Of a DNA stretch of 64,000 bases, positions 42,134 to 64,000 are shown piece by piece. The DNA is taken from assembly GCA_947074205.1 (NCBI GenBank), contig CAMTOQ010000001.1, positions 62,001-126,000 on the forward strand. Direction: 5' to 3'. Numbering within the stretch: position 1 is the stretch's first letter; every line of letters starts with the position of its first letter. Made by a program: the position numbers and the translations under genes. A model generated the notes under the pieces. The model had not been told where the DNA came from. It ran no database searches and saw nothing but the letters and a program-made list of their open reading frames with translations. The stretch comes from an uncultured Bacteroides sp. (GTDB taxonomy: Bacteria; Bacteroidota; Bacteroidia; Bacteroidales; Bacteroidaceae).

Positions 42134-43924
42134 TTAGCTGATATAAATCTTAAATGATTCACCAGTGTCAATACGGACAATATAAACACCTTGTGGCAAC
42201 GAATATTCTACTACTCTATCGGTTTTTGCAGACTCTATCTGGAAACCATTCAAATCATACAGTGAGATAGAGTGTAAACTGGGGTTTTGTATCTGTAATA
42301 CATTTCCAACAACAGTAATCTCGACAGAAGCAATTGTGCCGGCAGGAGACTGGATACCTGTAGAAAGCATATAGTCGAACGTTATCACACCATCATTTCC
42401 TTCTTTAATCTGCAGGATAGGTCTTTTTACTCGTTCACCATTATTCCACAGTGCAGCAGGAAGGCTAAAATCTGTAAAACTCATATTATTGGTTGAACCG
42501 GGGAAGGTGTCACCATCTTCATCCTCAAGCTCTTTGCTATTATCGGCTGCAATTAGTCTTACATGTTCGTATACCGCAGTAGTTGTGTTTACTCTATTGC
42601 TTCCCCATATAGCCGGCTTATAATGTATTTGTGAGATTAATAACCCATGGCCTGGAAGAGATGCATCCCACTTCACCGGTTGACGGTTTTCCATAACGAA
42701 ATACTCATTCTCATCATGATCGGACACCATGAAATAAGCCTTATTAGACTCTTCTATTGAGGTCAAGCTATGACTACCAGCCACATCAAGCACATCGGGC
42801 TGAAGCCAGCCTAGTGTATATCTTTCCATGGCTCCTAATGCAGGAGGTGTACGTGAGCCGTTGTTGTAAGAGCCAACATCCATCAAAGCCCAACGCCCCA
42901 TGCCATAAAATCCGGAATAAGTGGTATCATAAAGATCGGGTAAACCTAAAATATGACCGTACTCATGACAAAAGGTTCCAATACCATCGAGCTTAGTACC
43001 ACTGCCACCGCTTAGCTCGCATGAGCAAGCATAGTTACCAAGATATTTGCCACTGAGCTTCTTGAAGTAGACATATTCTAATGAAGCCGATTGTGGCCAA
43101 ACAGTCTCGGCTACTCCACCCTGTGCCTCGCCATGACCCGCATAAATCACATAGATAAAATCTACGGTCCCATCATTATTCATATCATATTGCGAGAAAT
43201 CGACACCCCATTCGCTATGAGCTAATAAGCAGGCATCAATAATCATTTGCGATACGTTCTCGCCTTGCGCAGTAGAAGTACCATAAAACTTTCTATTTTG
43301 TGGAAGCGTAACGGGGCCAACAACATCAAATTCCGGAATGAATTTACCACCAGACTGATCGACATAGTAGTCGCGAACACTTCCTGTAGAGTATTCTCCA
43401 GAATAGTTTTCGGCATTGATCATCTCTTTATACACGTCAAGAGTTTCGTAGTCACTGCAGAATTTCACATCTTGATATTCGGCTAGAATGACGATACCCT
43501 TTACTTTACCAACTGTAGGAAAAGATATATTGATAGCACCCGGCATGTTACTCCGAGTTGTTGCAGATAGAACATTTTCTTTCAGAAAAGCCTCCTTCAA
43601 GTCGTGAGTCTTAATACCTAAGATATAGTTATTCTCGTCTGCAGTTCTATTTTCTTTATCGGAAGCTATATATTTACCGGGTATTGCCTTACCCAACTGA
43701 TCGAGCACAGCATAATGCAGCGCTCCATTATCAGCAGCTTTCAGCAAAAGTCCATCGGCAGTTTCATAGAAATGAAAAGATTCATCTCCCTTAACACGGA
43801 CTGTAATTTCAGTACCATCGGGCTGACGATATTTACGCAAACCCGGTTTGGCAGGTATGGCATGTATAAATGAAGTTCCACATAAAAGTAGGAACAAGAG
43901 AGAAAGGATAGTAAGTTTTCTCAT
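42134..43924 (-). CDS. Secreted M6-family metalloprotease with T9SS-like C-terminal tail
   Basis: Signal peptide; zinc motif GTFCHEYGHILGLPDLYD; C-terminal ISLYDLNGFQIESAKTDRVVEYSLPQGVYIVRIDTGESFKIYI. Confidence 0.85.
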   Translation of the reverse strand: MRKLTILSLLFLLLCGTSFIHAIPAKPGLRKYRQPDGTEITVRVKGDESFHFYETADGLLLKAADNGALHYAVLDQLGKAIPGKYIASDKENRTADENNYILGIKTHDLKEAFLKENVLSATTRSNMPGAINISFPTVGKVKGIVILAEYQDVKFCSDYETLDVYKEMINAENYSGEYSTGSVRDYYVDQSGGKFIPEFDVVGPVTLPQNRKFYGTSTAQGENVSQMIIDACLLAHSEWGVDFSQYDMNNDGTVDFIYVIYAGHGEAQGGVAETVWPQSASLEYVYFKKLSGKYLGNYACSCELSGGSGTKLDGIGTFCHEYGHILGLPDLYDTTYSGFYGMGRWALMDVGSYNNGSRTPPALGAMERYTLGWLQPDVLDVAGSHSLTSIEESNKAYFMVSDHDENEYFVMENRQPVKWDASLPGHGLLISQIHYKPAIWGSNRVNTTTAVYEHVRLIAADNSKELEDEDGDTFPGSTNNMSFTDFSLPAALWNNGERVKRPILQIKEGNDGVITFDYMLSTGIQSPAGTIASVEITVVGNVLQIQNPSLHSISLYDLNGFQIESAKTDRVVEYSLPQGVYIVRIDTGESFKIYIS

Positions 43925-49493: not shown

Positions 49494-49501
49494 TATATTT
49501 G
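49494..49501 (+). promoter_or_regulatory. Putative -7 box (TATATTTG) upstream of the fimbrillin array
   Basis: TAnnTTTG match about 78 nt before the first array start codon; no clear -33 TTTG seen. Confidence 0.45.
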
Positions 49502-49579: not shown

Positions 49580-50677
49580 ATGTTTAGTATATTCAAAAAT
49601 TCTGTGACAAGCTTATGCTTGCTGCCACTCTTTTTTTTGTCTAGTTGTACTGGCGAGGAAGTGATAGGACAAAGTTCGGCCAAGCAAATATCATTTGAGA
49701 CCTATCTAGCGAAAGGCAAAACTAGAGCTGCCGCGAAGGGCACTTTTGCTGTGGGCGACGAGATGGCCATCTATGGCTATTCGCATGGGAGCACCCGATG
49801 GAGCGACCTCGCCTCTATAGAGAGTGGTGTGGAAAAAAAGATGCACAACAACGCCGTGGTAAAACAAGATAATAACGTTTGGACATACGCCCCCATACAA
49901 TATTGGGACGGTGATGATTTCCATTCATTCCTAGCATATTACCCCTACAACAAAAGTTTTGATAGCAAGTTCTACAATGGAGTGATTGTCGAATATACTA
50001 CTCCTAAAGAAGCTAAAGATCAGCACGATTTCCTTTATACTACCCCTGTATCCGATCAGCAATGGGCTGAAAACAAAAAAATCAGTTTCACCTTTCGCCA
50101 TGCGCTATCTCAGGTTTGGTTTACGATAAAAACCAATGACGATTACTCAAGGTATTACAACATCAAGGTAAAGCAGGTGCAGATTGCTGGCATCAAAGAT
50201 CAAGCCGACTTGAACTTAAAGGTGAGCGATGCAGCCATGAACCCTTGGAACAACCTAGTTTATAGTAACTCTACCTCTTTCACAACATCAGCCATCTGCA
50301 ACAAAGAGCTTAGTACTGAAGAGAAAGCACTTACCGAGGGGGAAGAAATATTTATGCTTCTACCCCAAACAATTGAAACCGATCAAGCGACCGCTTCTCT
50401 TACTCTAGAAATCGAGGCTCAAGAACTGGGATCGCCTTCGTACAACAATGACAACAAGGTGATATCATTCAAAATTCCTGCTACTACGTGGTCGAAGAAT
50501 AATATCTATCATTATAAGATTACGCTCAATGTGGAGCAGGCATTAGGACTTGTACCCATTATCATTGACGATTCCGAGATTGTAGATTGGGAGACAGATG
50601 GTGAAGCAACACTCCCGAAAGATGTCTTACAACAAGGCGATTTTACCATTGAAGACGACTGGAAAGATGAAGAATAA
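49580..50677 (+). CDS. Fimbrillin-family lipoprotein 1
   Basis: Lipobox LSSC; KGKTRAAAKGTFAVGDEMAIYG; FHSFLAYYPYN; FTFRHALSQVWF. Confidence 0.8.
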   Translation: MFSIFKNSVTSLCLLPLFFLSSCTGEEVIGQSSAKQISFETYLAKGKTRAAAKGTFAVGDEMAIYGYSHGSTRWSDLASIESGVEKKMHNNAVVKQDNNVWTYAPIQYWDGDDFHSFLAYYPYNKSFDSKFYNGVIVEYTTPKEAKDQHDFLYTTPVSDQQWAENKKISFTFRHALSQVWFTIKTNDDYSRYYNIKVKQVQIAGIKDQADLNLKVSDAAMNPWNNLVYSNSTSFTTSAICNKELSTEEKALTEGEEIFMLLPQTIETDQATASLTLEIEAQELGSPSYNNDNKVISFKIPATTWSKNNIYHYKITLNVEQALGLVPIIIDDSEIVDWETDGEATLPKDVLQQGDFTIEDDWKDEE

Positions 50678-51725
50678 AACGACTATACTACACAGAGCTT
50701 GCTTCGTACTTACCGCGGCACTCTGCTTTGCTTGCTCCGAAAGCTATGTGGAGACTCCAGTAGAGGAGGTTCCAAACCTACAAGAGTTGCGCATGAGCGG
50801 AAAGCTGGAGGAAGCAGCCAAAACACGCGCTTTGGATAAGTTTCCTCATGATGAGAAGATTGCTGTAGTAGCTACGGCTACACCTAGTGGCAGTACTATT
50901 GCAGGTGTATCTTGGGAACATCGACTAATCGATCATGTGACGGCGAAAGTGACTTCGACTACCTCTACAAAATATAATTTCGACTGGGTGGATGCCACTC
51001 AGGCCAACTACCTATGGCCCGAACAGAGCGATTTGCTATTCATGGCTTACGCTCCTGCCGATCTACCTACTACCGAGGCTACTCTTATCTGGAGAGACGG
51101 AGTAAGTCTGCACCTACAGCACAATGCCGATAACACTAAAATGCCGGATGTGATTTATGCCGATGGTACAATAGTAGATAAAGCCAATAAGTCGGTAGAC
51201 TTCGGAACTTTCCGCCATGTGTTTAGCCAAGTATCCATCAAACTAAAAGGCAAAGAGGTGAACCCTCATATATCGTTGGCACGCCTTGCATTGATCACCT
51301 CTAAAAAGGGGGTATATCACTTGCCTACTCGCTTGCTCACCCCAGAAGATGAAAACCTTATAACGTATGAATTGACTAGCGGACTACCTGCTTCACTAGG
51401 TAGCAATGAGTTTAAGCTAGAGGCGGGCGAGGACATTCCTTTCTATGTGTTCCCCGATACCGATACGCAAAGTTATACGCAGATTGCTGTGACCCTGAGC
51501 GATGCATCGCTAGGTGGCGAACCGATTATTATAACTCGTATATACGATATTGCAGAATTTAGCACCGCCAGTGGCGGGCATGCCAAGTTAGAGCGAGCAA
51601 CAAAAACCACGCTGGTTATCAGCATCAACGGTACCATCATTGGTACAGGAGTAGAATCGGCTCAACTCACCGCAGAGTCGGAACAGTGGAGCAACAATGG
51701 TGATTACGGAATAAATATAAACTAA
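50667..51725 (+). CDS. Fimbrillin-family lipoprotein 2
   Basis: Start ATG at 50667 (11-nt overlap with previous gene); lipobox CFAC; KTRALDKFPHDEKIAV; FGTFRHVFSQVSIKL. Confidence 0.8.
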   Translation: MKNKTTILHRACFVLTAALCFACSESYVETPVEEVPNLQELRMSGKLEEAAKTRALDKFPHDEKIAVVATATPSGSTIAGVSWEHRLIDHVTAKVTSTTSTKYNFDWVDATQANYLWPEQSDLLFMAYAPADLPTTEATLIWRDGVSLHLQHNADNTKMPDVIYADGTIVDKANKSVDFGTFRHVFSQVSIKLKGKEVNPHISLARLALITSKKGVYHLPTRLLTPEDENLITYELTSGLPASLGSNEFKLEAGEDIPFYVFPDTDTQSYTQIAVTLSDASLGGEPIIITRIYDIAEFSTASGGHAKLERATKTTLVISINGTIIGTGVESAQLTAESEQWSNNGDYGININ

Positions 51726-51738
51726 AATACTAAAGATT

Positions 51739-52896
51739 ATGAAATTCAAATTTTTCATGCCTTTCGCCTGCCTTTGCGGCCTTATGACCGTTGCAACAGG
51801 TTGCAACAACAACGACGAAGTTGATCTACTAAGTACCCCCATCCGCCTGTCTGCATTTACTGAAGATGAAGGTGGTGCAAAAACACGTGCTGTATCAGAC
51901 TTCCCCAATAGCCAAAAGATTTATATCAAAGGAGCCTTTGCACCTGCTGAAAATAATTGGACTGCAGCAGATAGAGTTAAAGTAGACTGGACTAACGATA
52001 AAGATCATTTGTATATTATGGATGCTGAAGCTACAGCTACCGGAGAAGTTAGTGGTACTTTTAGCTTTACCTGGACTACTCCACAATATTGGCCATTGCC
52101 TGGTACAAAGGTGAAAGATAATGTTGATTATAAATTCCTTTCATTCTTTGCCTATAGTCCAGAAGTAGATGAAACCAATTTTACACTAACTACTGAAGCT
52201 GATACAGATAAGCTAAAGTTCAACTTGACTTTAACTGAACTAAATGGAACTAGCAATGTGCAAACCATGCCAGATGTACTTTATACTTATCAAGGGGCAA
52301 CAGCTGATCGTGCACGTAACACCGTAAATCTTGGAAAGTTCTGTCATGCATTGAGTCAAGTCCAAGTGGTTTTAAATACCACAAATGTAAGTCCTAATGT
52401 ATTTATCAAAGAATTATCAATTAGATTGAGTAAGTCGGGTAGTTTTATTCACGATGGTTGGTTGTCGGAAGACACAGAAGTAAACACTACAACTTTTGAC
52501 CCTATATATACTCATAGCGATAAAAATAATACAATCACATATTATAAATACAACGATGCCGATGAGACGTTAGGTGGTGCAACCAAAGCAATCTTCTTAA
52601 ACTCTGGTATGGCTAGTACTGGTACACCTTTCTTGGTGCTTCCTAATGACCCAAACGCTCTTGTAACATTGACATATGTAGATAAAACAATGGGTGGGGA
52701 AGGTGTTACCAAAACTAATACTTGGACTGTAGATAATTTCTTGCAAAGGGTAGGAGATACGACTATTCCTGCAAGCCTAGATCGTGGAAAGAAAACAACC
52801 CTAGAACTAACCATTACCGGTAATGAGATTACTACTCTAACAGGTAAACTAGAAGCGTGGGGCGCGGAAACCATATACGAAACTACAATCGATTAA
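51739..52896 (+). CDS. Fimbrillin-family lipoprotein 3
   Basis: Lipobox ATGC; KTRAVSDFPNSQKIYI; PQYWPL; MPDVLY; LGKFCHALSQVQVVL. Confidence 0.82.
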   Translation: MKFKFFMPFACLCGLMTVATGCNNNDEVDLLSTPIRLSAFTEDEGGAKTRAVSDFPNSQKIYIKGAFAPAENNWTAADRVKVDWTNDKDHLYIMDAEATATGEVSGTFSFTWTTPQYWPLPGTKVKDNVDYKFLSFFAYSPEVDETNFTLTTEADTDKLKFNLTLTELNGTSNVQTMPDVLYTYQGATADRARNTVNLGKFCHALSQVQVVLNTTNVSPNVFIKELSIRLSKSGSFIHDGWLSEDTEVNTTTFDPIYTHSDKNNTITYYKYNDADETLGGATKAIFLNSGMASTGTPFLVLPNDPNALVTLTYVDKTMGGEGVTKTNTWTVDNFLQRVGDTTIPASLDRGKKTTLELTITGNEITTLTGKLEAWGAETIYETTID

Positions 52897-52934
52897 TCAG
52901 AAACAATACTCAATAGAATAAACAAATATAAGAT

Positions 52935-54089
52935 ATGAAAACGACTCACATCTATTTACTTGCCGGTGCATTGGCTATGGCAAGTTGCAGCAACGATATA
53001 GAAGAGTACACTACTTCTTCGAATGAAGAAATTAAACTATCTATCTCTGGCGTAGAGAATATGGTGGCAACAAGAGCAGCAGTTGCGTTCCCTAACAATG
53101 GAGAAATTGGGGTTACTGCTGTATTGACAAAAGAGGCTAACGCTTTTAGTTCAGCAGACTGGAATAATAATATATACATTAATAACCAAGAAGCTTCAAC
53201 TACTGAGCAAAAAGAAACAGGTCTAGATTATAGCTTTACTTGGGGCACTCGTCAATATTGGCCGCTTAAAAACATACATACAAATTCTGAACTAACTTTT
53301 ATCGCGTATAGTCCCAAAGTAGTTGATTCAAGATTTACAATCGCAGCTGCAGACCAAGGTGATGATAAAGACAAAATGAAGTTCACAATGAATCTTCCTC
53401 CTATAAGCGAAGATGAAGTGACACAAGATATGCCGGACGTACTTTATAGCACTCAATCCATAGGAACACGTGGAAACAGAGGCTTTCTTGATATGGGAAC
53501 ATTCAACCATGCGCTGAGCCAAATGTCGGTGGTAATTAGCTATAAGGACATGAACCCTAGAATGTATCTCACTAGATTCCAAGTTACAGTACCAAATAGT
53601 GGTTCATTTATACACCCAGGTTCATTTGTGAAAGAAGATTTGACAATCACAGAACCAACCTATACACGTGAAAGCAGTACAATCACTTATGCTTATAATA
53701 TAGAAAAGTATCAATTCGTTGCAAACCCTGATGATCAGAAAGACAAACTAACCTATTTGTATCTCAACTCGGGTATGTCTGGCACGCAAGAAGGTGTTAC
53801 TACAGGCACTCCATTCTTCGTTCTGCCAGGTAGCGACGTAAAAATTGAACTTGAGTTTAAAGACTATACTAACGGATTGGGTGATGGTTCTGAATCAAGC
53901 CATACTCCTGGCTACACTGTAACAAAAGAATTCACGCTAGCAGACTTCCTAAACGGAGGGGATACCGCTACTCTTGGCCGCGCGAAAAACACACGCCTCC
54001 AAATTAACTTGGTAGGTCATAGCGTAGGCATCACTGCAACACTAGAGCCATGGGTTGACAAAGGTAACTTTGTAATCGGACTAGACTAA
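52935..54089 (+). CDS. Fimbrillin-family lipoprotein 4
   Basis: Lipobox MASC; ATRAAVAFPNNGEIGV; RQYWPL; MPDVLY; MGTFNHALSQMSVVI. Confidence 0.82.
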   Translation: MKTTHIYLLAGALAMASCSNDIEEYTTSSNEEIKLSISGVENMVATRAAVAFPNNGEIGVTAVLTKEANAFSSADWNNNIYINNQEASTTEQKETGLDYSFTWGTRQYWPLKNIHTNSELTFIAYSPKVVDSRFTIAAADQGDDKDKMKFTMNLPPISEDEVTQDMPDVLYSTQSIGTRGNRGFLDMGTFNHALSQMSVVISYKDMNPRMYLTRFQVTVPNSGSFIHPGSFVKEDLTITEPTYTRESSTITYAYNIEKYQFVANPDDQKDKLTYLYLNSGMSGTQEGVTTGTPFFVLPGSDVKIELEFKDYTNGLGDGSESSHTPGYTVTKEFTLADFLNGGDTATLGRAKNTRLQINLVGHSVGITATLEPWVDKGNFVIGLD

Positions 54090-54117
54090 TAAAAACTCTT
54101 TGCATCAATAGACAAAC

Positions 54118-56250
54118 ATGAAACGATACGGAATACTCGCTGCATTAGGTATTTGCATCATTGGGCTGATGGGCTGCAATGATGCAATGGATACGTATGA
54201 ATCGGCAGAAGCAACTCCCATTAATCTCTCTGGAACCATCAGCAACGGCTACTCTACAAGGGCAGACGAAGAAGTTGAGGACGGGGATAATAGCGACGCT
54301 TCGACCGACCTACCTATGACCTTTACTTCATTGATGAGGGATGTAGATGGTAATCCTATCTTTCATTTTGCGCAATATGCCCGACTAGCCACCACGGTAC
54401 TAGCAGACAACGGGATAGGGAAAGTAAGCTTTGTGCAAGATAAAGACTTTCCAAGCTACCCCATGGCAGGCCAGTTTGTCCGCATGATTCTACATACACG
54501 TACGTCGGCCAATCCGCGTGAGGACTATGCGGAAGACAATCGCAAACTTCTTAATTTGAAGGCGGGCCGCGACTATTTGCTGGGCAACAATGCAACAGGT
54601 AATAAAGATACAGAGTCTGCTAACATCCGGCTACACCACATTATGACACGTATTGTGGTACAGTTTACTAAAGCTGATGATTTTGTAAAGCTGCCCGAAT
54701 CGGCTTCGTTTACATTGAAAGATAAAAAAGTATTGAAAGAGGGAACTTTCCCTATTGATATCGTTATTGGCGATAAAATTAGTGAAGCCGACGAAGCCAT
54801 CAAAGCTACTGCTAAAATGAATAGTGGCGACCACGTGCTAGGCGCGGGAGAGAACTTTGTACTAGCTACGGGGGAGAACCTTACCGGTACAGGTTTTAGC
54901 TCGATCACCATAGACGACTATACCCTGAACGCTACAGACTTGGCCAAACTATTTGTTCCTAAGGGAGAGAATAAAGAGACAGAAATGATACTCAATCCTG
55001 GCCTATCTTATACGCTCACCTTCCATGTAAACATATTGGGATTAGCAGGACTGAGCATCCATGTGGCTCCATGGGATGTGATAGATGTCACTACCCCGGA
55101 AGCCGACCATACTGCTCAGCGAATTCATCTATCACTAGGCGACTATGAAAAAGAGGACCTTGAGAAAATCGTTGTCTTCGACGAAGAGAATAATAAGTAC
55201 ACTGCCGAGATTGACAAGGAATACCCGTCTCCGGAAGCAAGTTCTAATAGAACCACCAATAGTGTGCAGTTGCCTAATAATATTGTAAAAGCAGAATTAT
55301 ACACCTCGAAGGGTATGATTATCAGCACTACTAACATCACTTATACTGAGAGTGTGTTGACGATTGGACTTTCTAAATCGGGTATGCTTCCAGTCGATCC
55401 CTCGGCAGCTTATGATGCAACAAACAATCCCTATGCAGTAACCACTCCTATCCAGCTCTTTAAGATAGAAGATCTGCCAGATGCATCTTTTAGGCAAACA
55501 GCCGACTTGGACTTATGCAGCACTGCAAACAATTCAATTGGTGGGGCTTTCACCGGACGATTTGATGGAAATTCAAAATACATCAGCAACCTGCTACTCA
55601 ACGACAACGGCTTGTTTGAACACAATATAGGAGTTATTGAAAATGTACACTTGAAATCAGGACTGATTAATGTGCAACCTGGAGCTACCCATGCAGGCAG
55701 TATTGCTGCTATTAACAGCGGAAAGATTATTGCTTGCAACAATAATGCCCGTATCAAGAGTACCTCTGTATCGCCGACCTATATTGGAGGCATCTGTGGG
55801 AAGCTAAGCGGCGAACTAAAAAAACAAGGTTTAGTCATTGGCTGTTTGCAGAGCGCTACCATCACCGCTGCCAATGGAGTGGCTGCAGGTATCGTTGGCC
55901 AGCAAATCGACAACAAATCGCTTACCACTGCATGTATAAATGTAGGCAAGATGTCGGCCCCAAAGATCGCCGGTATTTGCGGCAGTATAGAGAGTTACAG
56001 TTTAAGCAATATTGAATATTGCTATTGGCTGGCCGGAACAGCTACAGCTCCAAACTCCGATGAAGAAGTAGCCGTAATAGGCTATGAGGAATCTGTTTCA
56101 AACGAGAAGGACATTTGTGCACTTAGCACCTACCGACTACGCGAAACTGAAACTATTGATAGACTGAATGACGTGCTTCTAAATAATGAAATATCAACCT
56201 ATACTTTTAAGTTGAGCGTTTGGCCAACAGCAGTCGTTCTTATAGACTAA
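54118..56250 (+). CDS. Fimbrillin-family lipoprotein 5 with C-terminal GLUG-like solenoid (candidate tip adhesin)
   Basis: Lipobox LMGC; YSTRADEE; RLHHIMTRIVVQF; C-terminal GAFTGRFDGNSKYISNLLLNDNGLFEHNIGVIENVHLKSG. Confidence 0.75.
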   Translation: MKRYGILAALGICIIGLMGCNDAMDTYESAEATPINLSGTISNGYSTRADEEVEDGDNSDASTDLPMTFTSLMRDVDGNPIFHFAQYARLATTVLADNGIGKVSFVQDKDFPSYPMAGQFVRMILHTRTSANPREDYAEDNRKLLNLKAGRDYLLGNNATGNKDTESANIRLHHIMTRIVVQFTKADDFVKLPESASFTLKDKKVLKEGTFPIDIVIGDKISEADEAIKATAKMNSGDHVLGAGENFVLATGENLTGTGFSSITIDDYTLNATDLAKLFVPKGENKETEMILNPGLSYTLTFHVNILGLAGLSIHVAPWDVIDVTTPEADHTAQRIHLSLGDYEKEDLEKIVVFDEENNKYTAEIDKEYPSPEASSNRTTNSVQLPNNIVKAELYTSKGMIISTTNITYTESVLTIGLSKSGMLPVDPSAAYDATNNPYAVTTPIQLFKIEDLPDASFRQTADLDLCSTANNSIGGAFTGRFDGNSKYISNLLLNDNGLFEHNIGVIENVHLKSGLINVQPGATHAGSIAAINSGKIIACNNNARIKSTSVSPTYIGGICGKLSGELKKQGLVIGCLQSATITAANGVAAGIVGQQIDNKSLTTACINVGKMSAPKIAGICGSIESYSLSNIEYCYWLAGTATAPNSDEEVAVIGYEESVSNEKDICALSTYRLRETETIDRLNDVLLNNEISTYTFKLSVWPTAVVLID

Positions 56251-56265
56251 AATAACATTATATCA

Positions 56266-58248
56266 ATGAAGAAAATATATCTGTACATCACTCTACTTTC
56301 TGTCATCTTCTTCAACTTCTCACTAGTAGGTTGTAAAGATGATGAGCTTTTGAGTAGGCCACACGGAGAGGGAGTGCCACTGACGTTTGGAGAGGTTAGC
56401 TTCGATTATGAAAGCAATCAGCCCAACACACGTTTGGCAGAACTGAATCCGGATAGTATCAATGGAAACTCTGTAGACCAATTCAAGCATATCGGGGTAT
56501 ACGTATTCTACAAATCAGATTATAATAAGGGAGATTACTCTAAACCTTATGTAAAGAATCTCGAATACAAATATGAGAACAATACAATTGTTCCGGTTCA
56601 GGATTCGGGCGAGAAAATCTATATCTACGATGAGATGGTAGTAGTTGCGCTATATCCATATAATGATTATTACAACACTAATCCTTTGACAGACTTCAAC
56701 CTCTATCCAAGAACAAAAAGTGATTATAGCGAACAGAAATACATCCCTTACCGAGCGACGAGTCAAATCTACCCTAGTACTGCCTATAAGACCCATCTTT
56801 ATTTCAGTCCTATGCACACCATTAAGATTGAGATTGTGGTAGTGGGCAGCTTTACCGCTTATGCTGATTTAGGAGACGAAAAGAATATCAAAATAGCCCC
56901 AAATGTGGATCCTGTCGATGCAGAAGAAGGAGATAAACGCGAGAAGTGGGTAGATAATATTGTGAACTATGACAACGATGGTTCGGGTAGATTCACTCGT
57001 AAATATAGCGCTTATATATGGAAGAACTGGGTAGACTTTGAAGGCACAACACACAGCGACAATAAGCTCCAAAAAGGAGATATTATCTTCCAAAGCGATA
57101 AACTTACGCTTTCGGCCATAGAAGATGTGGACTTTGTGAGCGGAGTAGGATATCGCTATGGATACAACATCGAAACGGGCGAATATTTCGTCCTCAGTTC
57201 TTCGTCCATTGTGAACTGTGCGAAACGCATTCATGGTGGTGGCTTTCAAGTGTGCGACATCGACCTATCTAAAGTGAGTTGGACACCAAAAGACTTTACG
57301 TCTTCATTCTATGATGGGGGTGGACATAAAATTTATGGATTGACTATAGATCAAGACTTTTCGAGCCAACCCGATAAGATTCACTATACAGGTTTGTTTA
57401 CACGCACTATAAACTGGACTACAATGGTCAACATGTGTTTGGAAAGTCCCGTTATCAATGTAAAAACCTCTCCGGATGCTACCGAACCTACCTACGTAGG
57501 AGGCTTTCTGGGGTATGCTATGCAGAGCGACAGTTTGACAACACTACACCGACGATTGAGTATAAGGGGCTGTAAAGTAAACAACCCTATCATCAACGTA
57601 ACTGGAGCTAATATCTATGTGGGAGGGTTTGCCGGACGATATGGTCACACCACAAATCGAGATTATCTGAGAGATAGCTACGTGTTAGGAGGTAGCATTA
57701 CTACCAATCCTTTACCTCTCGACTCTATCAGCCCGGACACCATCAATGCCAGCTGCTTTGTAGGTGGTATGATCGGTGCCAATATGGGAAACTTACAAAA
57801 TTGCTTCACCACAACTTCGGTGACTAGTGCAAGACGCGATTCAACATGGACCATCACCGTTCAAAGAGATACAATAGAGATAGAGAATGAGTGGGGAGGC
57901 ATAGATGAAGAATATATCATCACACGTGATACGATAGTCAATTGGTTTGAAGCAGATTTGGCTTATGGTTTTGGCACAAACCGCCAAAATCACTGTCGCG
58001 AAAAAGCTCCCGGTGTGGCTAGCGGCTGCTATTCACGTCAAGAGGTCACTGCAGAGTACGACACTGTAGACTCAGAAAAGAACGAGAGCGTCATTGGCAC
58101 CACCATGAGTGAATCGGATGGGAGCACCGAATGGGCAACCTATAGCGGTGTATGGCCTGTGATATATTCTAAGTTGGGAGGCAGTTATTGGCGTACCAAT
58201 TCCTATCAACCACAAAATAGTAGTTTCCCCATCTTAGCTTGGGAGTAA
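56266..58248 (+). CDS. Fimbrillin-like lipoprotein 6 with GLUG-like solenoid (candidate tip adhesin)
   Basis: Lipobox LVGC; PNTRLAELN; FYDGGGHKIYGLTI...YTGLFTR and YVGGFLGYA/YVGGFAGRY/FVGGMIGAN rungs. Confidence 0.7.
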   Translation: MKKIYLYITLLSVIFFNFSLVGCKDDELLSRPHGEGVPLTFGEVSFDYESNQPNTRLAELNPDSINGNSVDQFKHIGVYVFYKSDYNKGDYSKPYVKNLEYKYENNTIVPVQDSGEKIYIYDEMVVVALYPYNDYYNTNPLTDFNLYPRTKSDYSEQKYIPYRATSQIYPSTAYKTHLYFSPMHTIKIEIVVVGSFTAYADLGDEKNIKIAPNVDPVDAEEGDKREKWVDNIVNYDNDGSGRFTRKYSAYIWKNWVDFEGTTHSDNKLQKGDIIFQSDKLTLSAIEDVDFVSGVGYRYGYNIETGEYFVLSSSSIVNCAKRIHGGGFQVCDIDLSKVSWTPKDFTSSFYDGGGHKIYGLTIDQDFSSQPDKIHYTGLFTRTINWTTMVNMCLESPVINVKTSPDATEPTYVGGFLGYAMQSDSLTTLHRRLSIRGCKVNNPIINVTGANIYVGGFAGRYGHTTNRDYLRDSYVLGGSITTNPLPLDSISPDTINASCFVGGMIGANMGNLQNCFTTTSVTSARRDSTWTITVQRDTIEIENEWGGIDEEYIITRDTIVNWFEADLAYGFGTNRQNHCREKAPGVASGCYSRQEVTAEYDTVDSEKNESVIGTTMSESDGSTEWATYSGVWPVIYSKLGGSYWRTNSYQPQNSSFPILAWE

Positions 58249-58271
58249 GTACAATAGAACTTAAAATACGA

Positions 58272-59321
58272 ATGGATAGAATGACCTATAGAATATGGAT
58301 GCTGCTGGCAACACTATTTATGGTGAGTTGTCAAAGCAATTTAAACGAGCATGGGATTGCCGAGGAGAGAGAAGAATTGATCATCCTTGCAAAGGTAGCC
58401 AATCTAGGCTCGCACATCTCTACCCGAAATGACAACTATGGTTTTGCCTTTGCCGAAGGCGACACAGTGGATCTATGGATAGATAATGACATCATCATAC
58501 GCAACTATGTTTATGAGGGCGGCATACTGCATGGAGCCACCGATGATGATGTATACTACTTCCGTGTGGACAATCGCCCCATTGCAAAGTTGTATTCGCA
58601 ATGGCCCACTGCCTATGGCCGCGAAGAGTTTCCTACCTTTCAAGGTTCTGAGGAGGAGTACAAGCGTGCCGACTGGTTGCGTGCCGAGATGACCAATGTG
58701 CAAGCCAGCGGTACAGGAGTACCTGTGCACTACGAACATCAAAACAGCCGTCTGGTTTTTGAACTACCCGACTATGCCGGACAGCTTACAGCTCTATCGC
58801 TACAAATTGGGGCTGACACCTACGAGGGATTCATCCCCGATGGAGGCAACAGAGGCGAACTCATTCTAAAGCCCGGACCACTCAACATAGCCGCTAGCCA
58901 CATCAACAACTATATTCAGGTGAATGATGTGCAGATGCCATTGGTGTTTACGGAGAACATCCAATTAAATATGGCAAGTGGATATTCTTATGTCATCACC
59001 TTGACTCGCAAGGGGGATGATCTAGTCTTCATCATCCACATTTATGGGTTTGGTACTACCGACAATAACATTGCAGTGCCTTTCACACAAGACGAAGATG
59101 GCTATTATCTGATTGGAGCCGAGCACCAACTTAGGGCAGCCCGCTCTTTGGTGATGCAGTATCAATGGAGAGATAAGAATTTCCGTCTGACAGAAGATAT
59201 AGAGTTAACCTCTTCGTGGGACCCAGTTAAAGAGGGATTGTATAGCGGTATATTTGATATGAATGGAAAGACAGTAAGCCTAGCCGAAGGTGAAGAGGGC
59301 AGTTTTGTATTCAAATTGTAA
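58272..59321 (+). CDS. Fimbrillin-like lipoprotein 7 with partial GLUG-like C-terminus
   Basis: Lipobox MVSC; HISTRNDNYGFAFAEGDTVDLWID; C-terminal FRLTEDIELTSSWDPVKEGLYSGIFDMNGKTVSL. Confidence 0.7.
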   Translation: MDRMTYRIWMLLATLFMVSCQSNLNEHGIAEEREELIILAKVANLGSHISTRNDNYGFAFAEGDTVDLWIDNDIIIRNYVYEGGILHGATDDDVYYFRVDNRPIAKLYSQWPTAYGREEFPTFQGSEEEYKRADWLRAEMTNVQASGTGVPVHYEHQNSRLVFELPDYAGQLTALSLQIGADTYEGFIPDGGNRGELILKPGPLNIAASHINNYIQVNDVQMPLVFTENIQLNMASGYSYVITLTRKGDDLVFIIHIYGFGTTDNNIAVPFTQDEDGYYLIGAEHQLRAARSLVMQYQWRDKNFRLTEDIELTSSWDPVKEGLYSGIFDMNGKTVSLAEGEEGSFVFKL

Positions 59322-59344
59322 TTAGAATAAGTGATAAAAGAAAT

Positions 59345-60535
59345 ATGAGAAAATCTCTATATATACTTGGATGGATGGTTGCGTTACTAGTCACCTCTTG
59401 CACGGAATCGTCGTATGATGTAGCAGAGTTGCCGGAAGACGATGGCCGCATTGCCATCGAAAGCGTGACGGCGCAGATTGATGGCGACATATCTACTCGC
59501 TCCACCGATACAGATAGCAATGAGGTGCTTTATGTGATCAATGACCCTACAACCGATGCACCCGCAACAAGAAGCGGTAACTGGAACCTATTCTTCGATA
59601 TGAAAACGATTGATGCAGAAGGCAATTATACCAAAACACTTAGTACAGAAGAAACTGGGTATTATATTAAAGGAGGAGATGGTAGCTGGGTACCCCAAGA
59701 TCCAGATCAACCGCTTTACTTTTACAGTTATATGCGTGGAATTAATGCACACTTCTTGTTATCGCAGAAGACGGAGTTCGATATATCTCTTGAAACTCAA
59801 TCTATAGAAACCGATCAAAGCACTAAAGATAATCTATTGAACCAAGATGCACTCTACAGTGAGTTTAGTCGTTTCAATCCCGGTAAAACACTATCGGTGA
59901 CGCTTAAGCATCTTCATGCCATGCTCGATTTCTCGTTTGACTATGAGCCCGACGAAGAGAATGAAATTAGTGTGGTGGTAGGCGATAAGACTTATATGCC
60001 TTATTGCCATCCTAAAGAGGTGACTACCGATGGTAAATCACACTATCTACTGATATTGCCCTATTCATTGGATGCAAACCCTACCATCATGGTGACTTAT
60101 AGAGGTACGGAGTACTTTACAGAAGTTCCTATATTCCCATCAGCTAGCCGCACACAGTTGGGTAAAAACACACGCTACCTCTTTACGGTACACGGTAAGG
60201 AGCTAAAAATTGAATCGATCACCATTGCCGAATGGAAGGTGGGACAAGCCTTCACAGGCGAATATATCAGTCCGGTGGCCTACCCCGTTTTTCGAGGGGA
60301 CCCGAATACCAGCTATACCCTAACCTACTCCAACGATCTATGGCAAACAGTGACGATGAATCTTCGTGGCGAGAAGTTGGCAAAGCCGGTGGGAAGTAAA
60401 ATCGTAAAGATAGAAAAAGGAGAGGAAGAAGCAGTGGATGTAAATGTGCCACTAAGTAATTATGGACAATTGGTCGATTTGGAGGATATCCTAACCAAAG
60501 CGAGTACCCCCTCTGAACCTCCTACAAATGAATAG
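59345..60535 (+). CDS. Fimbrillin-like lipoprotein 8
   Basis: Lipobox VTSC; DISTRSTDTDSNE; LKHLHAMLDFSFDY (fimbrillin mid-domain H..A.L.F). Confidence 0.7.
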   Translation: MRKSLYILGWMVALLVTSCTESSYDVAELPEDDGRIAIESVTAQIDGDISTRSTDTDSNEVLYVINDPTTDAPATRSGNWNLFFDMKTIDAEGNYTKTLSTEETGYYIKGGDGSWVPQDPDQPLYFYSYMRGINAHFLLSQKTEFDISLETQSIETDQSTKDNLLNQDALYSEFSRFNPGKTLSVTLKHLHAMLDFSFDYEPDEENEISVVVGDKTYMPYCHPKEVTTDGKSHYLLILPYSLDANPTIMVTYRGTEYFTEVPIFPSASRTQLGKNTRYLFTVHGKELKIESITIAEWKVGQAFTGEYISPVAYPVFRGDPNTSYTLTYSNDLWQTVTMNLRGEKLAKPVGSKIVKIEKGEEEAVDVNVPLSNYGQLVDLEDILTKASTPSEPPTNE

Positions 60536-60539
60536 AACA

Positions 60540-61442
60540 ATGAAATTGAATCAACTATATATCGTAGCTATCAGCTTACTGCTAGGCTTCTCTTCGTGTA
60601 GCGACGAGTTTCAGCAAGAGAGCAACGTGCAACAAGCGGTGGAAATCACCGGTGCTGTAGGCGATGCGAGCACTCGCGTGAGTGGTACTGCATGGGAAGA
60701 TGGAGATAAGATTGGAGTGACTTTGTTCAACTACAACTCTTCCAACCTGAACTTACCTTCTTCGTACAATCGCCAATACACCACGAAGAGCGGAGAATTG
60801 GGCCATTTCAAACCGACAACGCTCAACGAAACACTATTCTATCCACTAGGGCAAGAGGTGTCGTTAGCGGCCTACTATCCTTACCAAGCAGGGATAGACA
60901 GAACTCTGAAAGTACCTATTAATGTGGCCGATCAGAGCAATTTGGGCAAACTAGATTTTATCGTAGGCTACTCGGCAGGACCTTATAGCTTGAATAATAC
61001 AACAATCAGCATGAGCTTTAAACGTAAGATGTCGATGTTGCGTTTTCGTTTTGCGGTGACGTCCGATTCTGATAAAGCTAAATTAACTGGTGCTACTATC
61101 ACAATGACAGGAATGTATACTGCCGGGAACTACAATATCACTAATTCTGATGCTGACAATATGAGTGAGCTTTCAACTATAAGTGATATCACACTGAACA
61201 TCGACGGGACAACGTTGCAAGCCGAAGCTATCGTATTTCCACGCGCAGCGGGAGATGGGATAACCTTCACCATTACCTTTAACGATAATAGTACACAACT
61301 CTTCTATATGCCCTCCGACCACGCGTTACGCTCCGGCTACCGCCGCACCTATACGTTTAGTGGCAGTGAGAACATCACAATGGTAGGAAGTGCATTAGAA
61401 CCTTGGACAGACAAGGGTGATTTTGGAAATACATGGGAATAA
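60540..61442 (+). CDS. Fimbrillin-family lipoprotein 9
   Basis: Lipobox FSSC; ASTRVSGTAWEDGDKIGVTLFNY; VSLAAYYPYQ; FKRKMSMLRFRF. An ATG at 60528 is an alternative start. Confidence 0.8.
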   Translation: MKLNQLYIVAISLLLGFSSCSDEFQQESNVQQAVEITGAVGDASTRVSGTAWEDGDKIGVTLFNYNSSNLNLPSSYNRQYTTKSGELGHFKPTTLNETLFYPLGQEVSLAAYYPYQAGIDRTLKVPINVADQSNLGKLDFIVGYSAGPYSLNNTTISMSFKRKMSMLRFRFAVTSDSDKAKLTGATITMTGMYTAGNYNITNSDADNMSELSTISDITLNIDGTTLQAEAIVFPRAAGDGITFTITFNDNSTQLFYMPSDHALRSGYRRTYTFSGSENITMVGSALEPWTDKGDFGNTWE

Positions 61443-61468
61443 TTTTCTTAAACAAATAAATAAACATT

Positions 61469-62587
61469 ATGAAACAGAAACTAGGATTCGCAGCCATTGC
61501 TCTCGGATTGTTGGCAAGCTGCTCGGAAGCTGAGATTATCGAACGCTCAGATTCAAAAATTATCTCTTTTGATACTTACATCGGTAAGGGTAGCGAAACT
61601 CGTGGGGTGCCGGTAGCCGATTTTGTTGATGGTAATGCAATGCAGGTTTTCGGGGTGACAACCGATACTAAATTGGGCGCTGGTTGGGCTGGCACAGGCA
61701 TTCCCGGTATGATTCCTGAAGATGGTGGCTCTATCTATACAAAAACATCATCTAATTGGAGCGGTAACAGCATATCTTACTGGGAAGAGAATAAATTCCA
61801 CTCTTTCTTTGCTTACGCACCAGCAACAACTTCGAATACATCACTGTTCAACAATGGTATTGTTACCTATACAGTGGCAGACGAGTTGGCTAATCAGATA
61901 GACTTTATGGTGGCTGATCCTGTTAAACAAGATCTTTATACGACAGGTACTCCAAGTGCAGTTACATTTACATTCCGCCACATGCTATCTCAAGTTCGCT
62001 TCAAAGTAATCTACAAAGAGAACTATGCTAACAACACCTTCAAATTGGAAGATAATGTAATAGCAAATAGTGTAGTGATTTCATTGAATAATGGAATAAA
62101 CAACACTTTTGTAAAAACCGGTAGTGTGAATGTTATTGGTAAAACTGATACAGAAGCATGGAATGTAATTAATAATACTACAGGTGCTGTAGCAAGCTAC
62201 ACAGTAACCCCTGACAATAGTATTTCTATACCATTCACTTATTATAAGAAAGGAGTTAATCAAGAGGAATCAATTACTTTTAATGGCGGTGCTAATGACC
62301 ACATTTTAATGCTAATGCCTCAAACTACCGATGGTAAATTAAAGATTGATTTAGAACTTAGCTATAGATATACATACACCACTCCTGAAGATAAAAAAGA
62401 AAACATAATTGCTAACTTCATTACATCAGGACCTCAAACTTGGGAAGCCAATAAGATCTATACTTATGTGCTAGTCCTAGATATGGTAAATGTTCTAGAT
62501 AGAAAACCTATTGTGATTGCTAACCCTACAATCGTAGGATGGGACGAGGATAACATTGTAGAACAAGAGTTTCCAGCACAACCATAA
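61469..62587 (+). CDS. Fimbrillin-family lipoprotein 10
   Basis: Lipobox LASC; KGSETRGVPVADFVDGNAMQVFG; FHSFFAYAP; FTFRHMLSQVRFKV. Confidence 0.82.
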   Translation: MKQKLGFAAIALGLLASCSEAEIIERSDSKIISFDTYIGKGSETRGVPVADFVDGNAMQVFGVTTDTKLGAGWAGTGIPGMIPEDGGSIYTKTSSNWSGNSISYWEENKFHSFFAYAPATTSNTSLFNNGIVTYTVADELANQIDFMVADPVKQDLYTTGTPSAVTFTFRHMLSQVRFKVIYKENYANNTFKLEDNVIANSVVISLNNGINNTFVKTGSVNVIGKTDTEAWNVINNTTGAVASYTVTPDNSISIPFTYYKKGVNQEESITFNGGANDHILMLMPQTTDGKLKIDLELSYRYTYTTPEDKKENIIANFITSGPQTWEANKIYTYVLVLDMVNVLDRKPIVIANPTIVGWDEDNIVEQEFPAQP

Positions 62588-62621
62588 TCTCTTAAAAGAT
62601 AAAAACTCCAATTAGAATAAT

Positions 62622-62671
62622 ATAGTTTGGTTCTTAAGGGGAAAAGGAATTACCCTTAAGAACCAAACTAT
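62622..62671. other. 19-bp perfect inverted repeat (hairpin) between fimbrillin 10 and the DUF5119 gene
   Basis: ATAGTTTGGTTCTTAAGGG (62622-62640) / CCCTTAAGAACCAAACTAT (62653-62671), 12-nt loop, no clean U-tract. Confidence 0.8.
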
Positions 62672-62706
62672 CTATTTAGCGTTTCAACATCATTCACAAT
62701 CTATTC

Positions 62707-63744
62707 ATGACAATCAAGAACTGTAAACTTATCGCATTCCTATTGCTATTGCTGCCCCTTGTTACAAGCTGCGAACGCAATGAACTTTGTTATAGTCATC
62801 CACATGGCAATCTGTATGTCAATGTCGTATGGGATGATGTTCCACCGCTAATTCAAAACACCCTACCCGAAGGGATGGCCATTCGCTTCTTTCACAAAGA
62901 CGAAGCAGCCGGTTACCCCTATGCCAATCACTTCTATCGTGGCCCCTATGGCGGCCTTACCAACGTACCCAATGGCGATTACAAACTGATGGTGTACAAC
63001 AGTGACACCGAGCGAATCAACCTAAAAGGGCTCGACAAGCACAATGACGTGTGCGCTTTCCTATCGCAACGCACCCGCAACAACTACCTAAGCGGCATTG
63101 TATCTTCTAGCAATGTCTATCGCATCGAATACCTCGACGATACACGCGCCAATACCCGCACACGTAGCGAAATTCTAATCGGTCAGACCGACCGTGTATT
63201 TACCACCATGAGCCAAGACGCAAGAAGTACGGCCATTGGCGGGATCGACAATGCAGAAACAGATACCATTTACACTCACCCACAAAGTAGAGTGATGTGG
63301 ACAAAAATCACCGTCAAGGCAAATGGACTGAAAGGTGCCCTCTCGTGCGCCGGTTCCATCAGCGGTGTCAACCATACCTTGCAACTCCATGACAGCAACA
63401 CTACCGACGAGACTGGTACCATCATCTTTGATATGTTCCAAACTGATGACACCACCCTCTCGCAAACCCTCTACATATTTGGATTTGAACAGTCGCCTGC
63501 CGGCACTCCACGCGATGAATCCATTCAGCAAATTCTTCGCCTAGAGTTCTTGATGACCGACAATAAAGTCTATGCCTACGAATTCGATGTAGCCAACCAG
63601 ATTGACTTTGCCAATCTTAAACCCGAAACAGAAGTTCCTATATATATCACCGAGATAGATCTACCCACCATGACCGACCAAAGTGGTGGACTTTTTGATG
63701 CCGATATCTCAAACTGGGGTGATGAAATCATCACCGAATTATAA
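62707..63744 (+). CDS. DUF5119-like lipoprotein (fimbrial-locus associated)
   Basis: Lipobox VTSC; CERNELCYSHPHGNLYVNVVWD motif typical of the family. Confidence 0.75.
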   Translation: MTIKNCKLIAFLLLLLPLVTSCERNELCYSHPHGNLYVNVVWDDVPPLIQNTLPEGMAIRFFHKDEAAGYPYANHFYRGPYGGLTNVPNGDYKLMVYNSDTERINLKGLDKHNDVCAFLSQRTRNNYLSGIVSSSNVYRIEYLDDTRANTRTRSEILIGQTDRVFTTMSQDARSTAIGGIDNAETDTIYTHPQSRVMWTKITVKANGLKGALSCAGSISGVNHTLQLHDSNTTDETGTIIFDMFQTDDTTLSQTLYIFGFEQSPAGTPRDESIQQILRLEFLMTDNKVYAYEFDVANQIDFANLKPETEVPIYITEIDLPTMTDQSGGLFDADISNWGDEIITEL

Positions 63745-63751
63745 CATAGAC

Positions 63752-64000
63752 ATGAAAAGACTACTCTACCCTATATTACTATTTGCTCTTCTATTGACGG
63801 CCAACTGCTTCAGCGGCTTGCAGGCGCAAGGAGTGCATAAAAAAGCTCAAATCAAGCTTCTTTTCAAGCAAGGCAACTCACACATCGACCGCGAGCTACT
63901 AGCCAATGCCGACTCTATCAACAAGTTTATACGTATGGTAGAAGAGGTAAAGCAAGACACAGCCTTTACACTAGTGGCAGCCCGAATCAACAGTTCGTGT
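63752..64000 (+). CDS. OmpA-like / DUF3575-DUF3868-type fimbrial-locus protein (3' end outside window)
   Basis: MKRLLYPILLFALLLTANCFSGLQAQ signal peptide, then IKLLFKQGNSHIDRELLANADSINKFIRMVEEVKQDTAFTLVAARINSSC. Not in ORF track. Confidence 0.6.
   Translation, partial: MKRLLYPILLFALLLTANCFSGLQAQGVHKKAQIKLLFKQGNSHIDRELLANADSINKFIRMVEEVKQDTAFTLVAARINSSC

Follow-up and report, generated by a model that had tools for sequence, protein, structure and literature searches.

A single heteropolymeric type V (FimA/Mfa1-type) pilus, built from ten subunits and a DUF5119 anchor, is the probable product of a locus that begins at position 49580 of the window, by which is meant the whole 64,000-nucleotide stretch of uncultured Bacteroides sp. 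DNA analysed here. Type V pili are a major pilus class in Bacteroidales, and their mechanism is known mostly from two systems, each of five genes, in a single oral species. The locus is a large example of the type V pilus kind whose accessory core is conserved in gene order, and the arrangement points to a fibre on the cell surface that is ordered and unusually complex, and not to an accumulation of spare genes. Taken with its relatives in other genomes, the locus would represent a pilus with several distinct accessory subunits whose order has been maintained.

Ten consecutive plus-strand ORFs encoding lipoproteins, each with a lipobox signal peptide, span positions 49580–62587. All nine junctions among them are tight (in order, −11, 13, 38, 28, 15, 23, 23, −8 and 26 nt), and two are overlaps. 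An initial annotation of the sequence had called ten same-strand lipoprotein genes with gaps of −11 to +38 nt, and the ORFs and their spacing agree with it exactly. Downstream on the same strand lie a gene for a DUF5119 protein and one for a DUF3575 outer-membrane protein. The presence of a lipobox in 10/10 array proteins and in the DUF5119 protein marks all of these as lipoprotein precursors, as expected of type V pilus components.

All ten array proteins are assignable to the fimbrillin superfamily, some by Pfam, others by BLAST, by comparing profiles or by fold search. PF13149 (Mfa_like_1) scored above cut-off in gene 1 (49580–50677, lipobox LSSC; E=7.6e-31), gene 2 (50667–51725, from the preferred start; E=1.5e-15), gene 5 (54118–56250, 710 aa), gene 9 (60528–61442, 304 aa; E=7.2e-40) and gene 10 (61469–62587; E=6.3e-23), and just under it in gene 7 (58272–59321, again from the preferred start; 6.9e-6) and gene 8 (59345–60535; 3.5e-5). 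The Pfam search found no PF13149 in gene 3 (51739–52896), gene 4 (52935–54089) or gene 6 (56266–58248, 660 aa), and an NCBIfam search of the ten proteins gave no meaningful match. Genes 3 and 4 are counted as fimbrillins because BLAST ties both to gene 2 (gene 3 matched gene 4 at 1e-46 and gene 2 at 3e-21). The earlier description of the array as fimbrillin-like was thus confirmed by Pfam for five genes, and for the others by BLAST, hhalign and fold search.

Family profiles gave the same answer, those of 2/3/4, 5, 7 and 8 matching fimbrillins with hhalign probabilities in the range 93–99.6% (2/3/4 family, 98.8–99.6%; gene 7, 98.1%; gene 8, 97%). The 2/3/4 profile also matched PDB structures 4qb7 and 4k4k, the latter being matched by gene 9 too (2.7e-17), and PF13149 was present in 12/12 members of the gene 5 family. 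For gene 6 the hhalign link was weaker (90.7–94.8%). PDB sequence searches gave no match for the gene 6 and 7 families and nothing significant for those of genes 5 and 8, and the fold of gene 6 is therefore taken from an AlphaFold model of moderate confidence (17 sequences, mean pLDDT 65). This model matched fimbrillin structures, namely 3t2l (7.5e-6), 3ufi (1.3e-5) and Mfa4, with modest TM-scores of at most about 0.4. The two-domain fimbrillin fold is accordingly found across the subunits, genes 6–8 being the weakest cases, as judged from sequence and models.

Some of the ten are duplicates of one another. Genes 2, 3 and 4 grouped together, apart from the single-copy genes found in other species (98/98 support for the clade, gene 2 on a long branch), and are therefore the outcome of a triplication in the window's lineage, while genes 1 and 10 are paralogues with 28% identity by BLAST. 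The second halves of the two largest proteins are of another kind. That of gene 6 is GLUG-like (GLUG matches in 6/17 family members) and has weak pectate-lyase-type helix matches, giving an N-terminal fimbrillin-like fold followed by a GLUG/right-handed beta-helix-like part. In gene 5 a fimbrillin domain precedes a long C-terminal half whose likeness to GLUG was judged by eye and from local similarity to relatives of gene 6.

In Porphyromonas gingivalis, Mfa1, Mfa3 and Mfa4 are cut at Arg49, Arg43 and Arg54, respectively, the anchor Mfa2 has no site and is not cut, and shaft proteins have a conserved Trp where the C-terminal stretch begins (PMC5789003). Each of the ten array proteins has a Thr-Arg dipeptide 26–33 residues past the lipidated Cys (26, 31, 28, 29, 28, 33, 32, 33, 26 and 27 in genes 1 to 10); it is absent from the DUF5119 protein. 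This is the position at which Mfa/Fim pilins are cut, and it recurs in genes 6, 7 and 8, which otherwise share little with the other seven. Across diverged relatives the Arg never varies: R56, along with C23, in 17 gene 6 family sequences, R47 and C18 in 16 sequences of the 2/3/4 family, and R48 in 12 of the gene 5 family. Over all loci fetched, Thr-Arg fell in the interval in 148/184 fimbrillin lipoproteins compared with 3/37 DUF5119 proteins. It was also seen in 12/56 members of a remaining ‘other’ class, but pilus proteins and false ORFs still seem to be mixed into that class, which makes the comparison with DUF5119 the cleaner of the two. All ten subunits, then, have a basic residue where a maturation cut would be predicted.

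The C-termini divide the ten proteins. A shaft-type Trp followed by a tail occurs in genes 2, 3, 4 and 9 (11 residues), 10 (14 residues) and 1 (28 residues), and such tails may act as strand donors. In genes 5, 6, 7 and 8 the C-terminal parts extend past the fimbrillin region, by about 90 aa in gene 8. The locus would therefore look like six shaft-type subunits (1–4, 9 and 10; gene 2 is shaft- or adaptor-like), four tip or accessory subunits (5–8) and one anchor; among the four, gene 6 is a candidate tip adhesin, gene 8 an accessory candidate, and genes 5 and 7 candidates for either position.

The DUF5119 lipoprotein (62707–63744, plus strand; PF17145, E=1.9e-23) is hardly linked to fimbrillins by sequence. 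Its AlphaFold model, again of moderate confidence (mean pLDDT 63), matched BACOVA_02677 (5cag, E 2.7e-18), Mfa3 and Mfa2, with modest TM-scores of at most about 0.6. A fimbrillin-like fold, as modelled, and no cut site, a property shared with all but three of its 37 relatives, are what is expected of an anchor, and the protein is a candidate for the FimB/Mfa2 role. DUF5119 is present in 29/41 sampled genomes of the genus; no description of it as an anchor was found in a literature search that did not take in the founding type V pilus paper (Xu et al. 2016). The following gene starts, by preference, at the ATG at 63752, occupies 63752–64000 of the window and continues past its end to 65017 when counted in window positions (contig position 127017, plus strand). 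Its sole Pfam match was DUF3575 (E=7.5e-31). The initial annotation had this pair as DUF5119-like and OmpA-like; the former assignment stands, whereas the latter does not, PF00691 giving no match and only the N-terminal part looking OmpA-like by eye.

A scan of a genome collection with the gene 6 family yielded 16 loci, annotated with models built in this analysis, from Bacteroides, Tannerellaceae, Alistipes/Rikenellaceae, Dysgonomonas and Proteiniphilum. As far as each contig extends, these read DUF5119, one or two fimbrillin genes, a 2/3/4-type gene, 5, 6, 7 and 8, and the order is invariable. The core of 2/3/4-type, 5, 6, 7 and 8 is thus kept across Bacteroidaceae, Tannerellaceae, Rikenellaceae and Dysgonomonadaceae, which argues that its genes encode parts of one structure, and genes 4-5-6-7-8 of the window follow the same order. 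Elsewhere there is a single 2/3/4 family gene, directly before gene 5; the window adds gene 1 and the triplication, and its 3′ end is where the anchor and the shaft-type pair 9 and 10 are found, so that the anchor genes lie downstream here and upstream in relatives. Full gene 6 relatives are rare, since in an order-wide search other genomes matched only the GLUG part; within the genus, 4/120 other genomes have one.

These features are consistent with a pilus that would assemble as follows. The ten subunits would reach the outer surface as lipoproteins and be cut after the conserved Thr-Arg, each losing its first beta strand, and the C-terminal tail of one would insert into the open groove of the next. 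DUF5119, with no site, would stay lipidated as the anchor, and the DUF3575 barrel may play an accessory part in the outer membrane. The shaft would most likely be supplied by genes 9, 10 and 1, genes 2–4 might adjoin a tip complex or extend the shaft, and genes 5–8, with their extended or beta-helix C-termini, could form an ordered tip/accessory complex, with a possible part in adhesion. The initial proposal of a multi-subunit type V pilus is upheld by family or fold and cleavage motif in all ten proteins, by the site-less anchor candidate and by gene order conserved elsewhere. Counted against the one-pilus reading are a hairpin in a 119-nt gap before the anchor gene, an anchor side that differs from that of relatives, the failure to find a gingipain, and the moderate confidence of the two models.

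The initial annotation had offered, as an alternative, a bank of alternative stalk/tip subunits. On such a reading one shaft system would be capped or extended by different members to give several pilus types from one locus. The clade of genes 2, 3 and 4 and the paralogy of 1 and 10 suit such a bank, as does the precedent of P. gingivalis strains, which vary in the tip gene mfa5 and in some cases have it as a tandem pair (PMC8313007). The proposal fits these duplicates only, however: genes 5, 6, 7 and 8 are single-copy, unrelated beyond their common fold, and retained together in order across four families, and no recombination repeats were seen around alternative genes or promoters in the array. 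A bank is therefore an unlikely explanation for the locus as a whole.

Even less probable is that two units have become neighbours by chance, a tip/adhesin operon (genes 1–8) and, as a distinct small operon for a pilus, genes 9 and 10 with DUF5119 and DUF3575. Blocks of this kind can evidently move, the DUF5119/shaft block of relatives lying 5′ of the core and not 3′, and the hairpin falls inside the second block; yet the same two blocks adjoin in relatives too, and genes 8 and 9, which overlap by 8 nt, are very likely cotranscribed for that reason. The slightest chance of the three belongs to the reading in which the proteins have fimbrillin folds but act separately as surface lipoproteins, with no polymerisation. 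It would fit with the fact that searches for C25 and C11 peptidases turned up no dedicated maturation protease in an assembly that is 89% complete, but it leaves unexplained a Thr-Arg found in nearly all pilins and, apart from the three relatives above, absent from the anchor family, as well as the shaft-type Trp and tail in 6/10 subunits. The single heteropolymeric pilus is thus the preferred reading in what follows.

Expression of the locus as a single operon, also put forward at first, is plausible for the ten genes with their nine tight gaps, but the 119-nt gap between gene 10 and DUF5119 contains an 18-bp perfect hairpin (62622–62671, plus strand; minimum free energy of the gap −31.3 kcal/mol, z = −6.1). 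With so strong a hairpin standing between the array and the anchor pair, a uniform single transcript remains putative. The hairpin lacks a U-run and so is not supported as an intrinsic terminator; nor is it a mobile or repeated element, its own two arms being the only exact matches in the genome, and an Rfam search of the region gave no RNA family. It could be an expression divider, and one guess is that it sets a different dose of anchor and DUF3575 protein. Upstream of gene 1, TATATTTG (49494–49501, plus strand) matches the Bacteroides −7 element (TAnnTTTG); a promoter scan requiring a −33 element found nothing there, and for want of a good −33 element the match is called a candidate promoter.

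The Arg-specific maturation protease of P. gingivalis is Rgp. No gingipain was found in the window's genome (assembly 89% complete), where the only C25 peptidase proved to be the type IX sortase PorU and was rejected as a gingipain. One C11 peptidase in the same assembly is a candidate Arg protease. With PorU present, at least some of the type IX secretion machinery is encoded in the genome. A full-length PorU was seen at L131 (G000:C21:14522-15652), in a Bacteroides-group genome, and an M6 peptidase in the window (42134–43924) has a weak match to a Por secretion tail.

Compared with Mfa1 fimbriae (mfa1-5 of P. gingivalis), the locus has in common lipoprotein precursors, the two-domain fimbrillin fold, an uncut anchor, an Arg cut site between strands one and two, and tip subunits in the same cluster (PMC5789003). 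It differs in having ten subunits predicted to be cut rather than five genes in all, a DUF5119 rather than an Mfa2-type anchor, and GLUG/beta-helix-like parts where the Mfa5 tip has a VWF domain in most genotypes. FimA fimbriae (fimA-E of P. gingivalis) likewise come from one cluster, which encodes the shaft and anchor as well as several tip/accessory subunits, although their shaft is of the P_gingi_FimA family and not Mfa_like_1, and their subunits are half as many.

Bacteroides Mfa_like_1 loci with DUF5119 and DUF3575 have the same gene content. In the nine high-quality genomes of the genus that were sampled, the longest tandem Mfa_like_1 runs were ~3–5, compared with ten here. Longer runs were seen in just two genomes, both chosen for high Mfa_like_1 counts: one of ten at G006:C38, one of eleven at G014:C2 and one of nine at G014:C3. 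Ten subunits is therefore at the upper end for the genus and not unique to the window. The statement in the initial annotation that described loci generally have a few subunits is true of the best-studied ones, at five genes each, but arrays of 9–11 do occur in other genomes of the genus. These long arrays (L048, L049 and L050, respectively) have DUF3575 and no gene 6 core, and DUF5119 is also present in L048. The window's own genome has 25 Mfa_like_1 matches, in several further clusters. At L047:2632-5978 (G000:C4:88000-104000), two lipoproteins with Thr-Arg at the pilin position and a DUF3575-type gene nearby gave no fimbrillin match with the model built in this analysis, and may belong to another divergent pilus locus.

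The more surprising observation lies outside the window, whose array contains no such fusion. In nearly all relatives the gene before the 2/3/4-type gene encodes a single chain of 3–10 fimbrillin domains. There were 22 distinct, Pfam-confirmed proteins with at least three such domains, the largest having 10 domains in 2415 aa, and no description of these poly-fimbrillins was found in the same literature search, outside which Xu et al. (2016) lay. The loci concerned (in Bacteroides reticulotermitis, Proteiniphilum acetatigenes and Dysgonomonas, for example) share the ordered core of 2/3/4-type, 5, 6, 7 and 8 with the window, where, by contrast, the subunits are separate, 2/3/4 is triplicated and the anchor is at the opposite end. 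Gene 9 is clearly, by sequence, the single-domain counterpart of poly-fimbrillin domain 1: it matched the first-domain profile at E=8e-61, the next best window gene reaching 2e-11.

In internal poly-fimbrillin domains roughly the first 20–48 model positions are missing, and with them the cut site as well as the signal peptide and first strand; 67/75 inter-domain stretches have no Thr-Arg. The Trp of each domain is followed, ahead of the second strand of its successor, by a short stretch that looks like a strand and is most simply read as donor tail and replacement first strand at once. It is tentatively proposed, with a chance of being right a little short of even, that the same ordered pilus exists in two fusion states, as separate protease-matured subunits in the window and as poly-fimbrillins in relatives, the post-Trp strand replacing the lost first strand of the next domain. 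If so, the fusions would amount to a polymer frozen by nature, with part of the fibre length gene-encoded, and the polarity of strand exchange would be directly visible, each unit's C-terminus entering the groove of the unit after it; such natural counterparts of the shaft could reveal the donated strand, its direction and how length is set. Examples of poly-fimbrillins include those at L106:3931-11178 (G130:C32), L120:2223-6788, L113:3-3104 and L117:2950-6750, among others.
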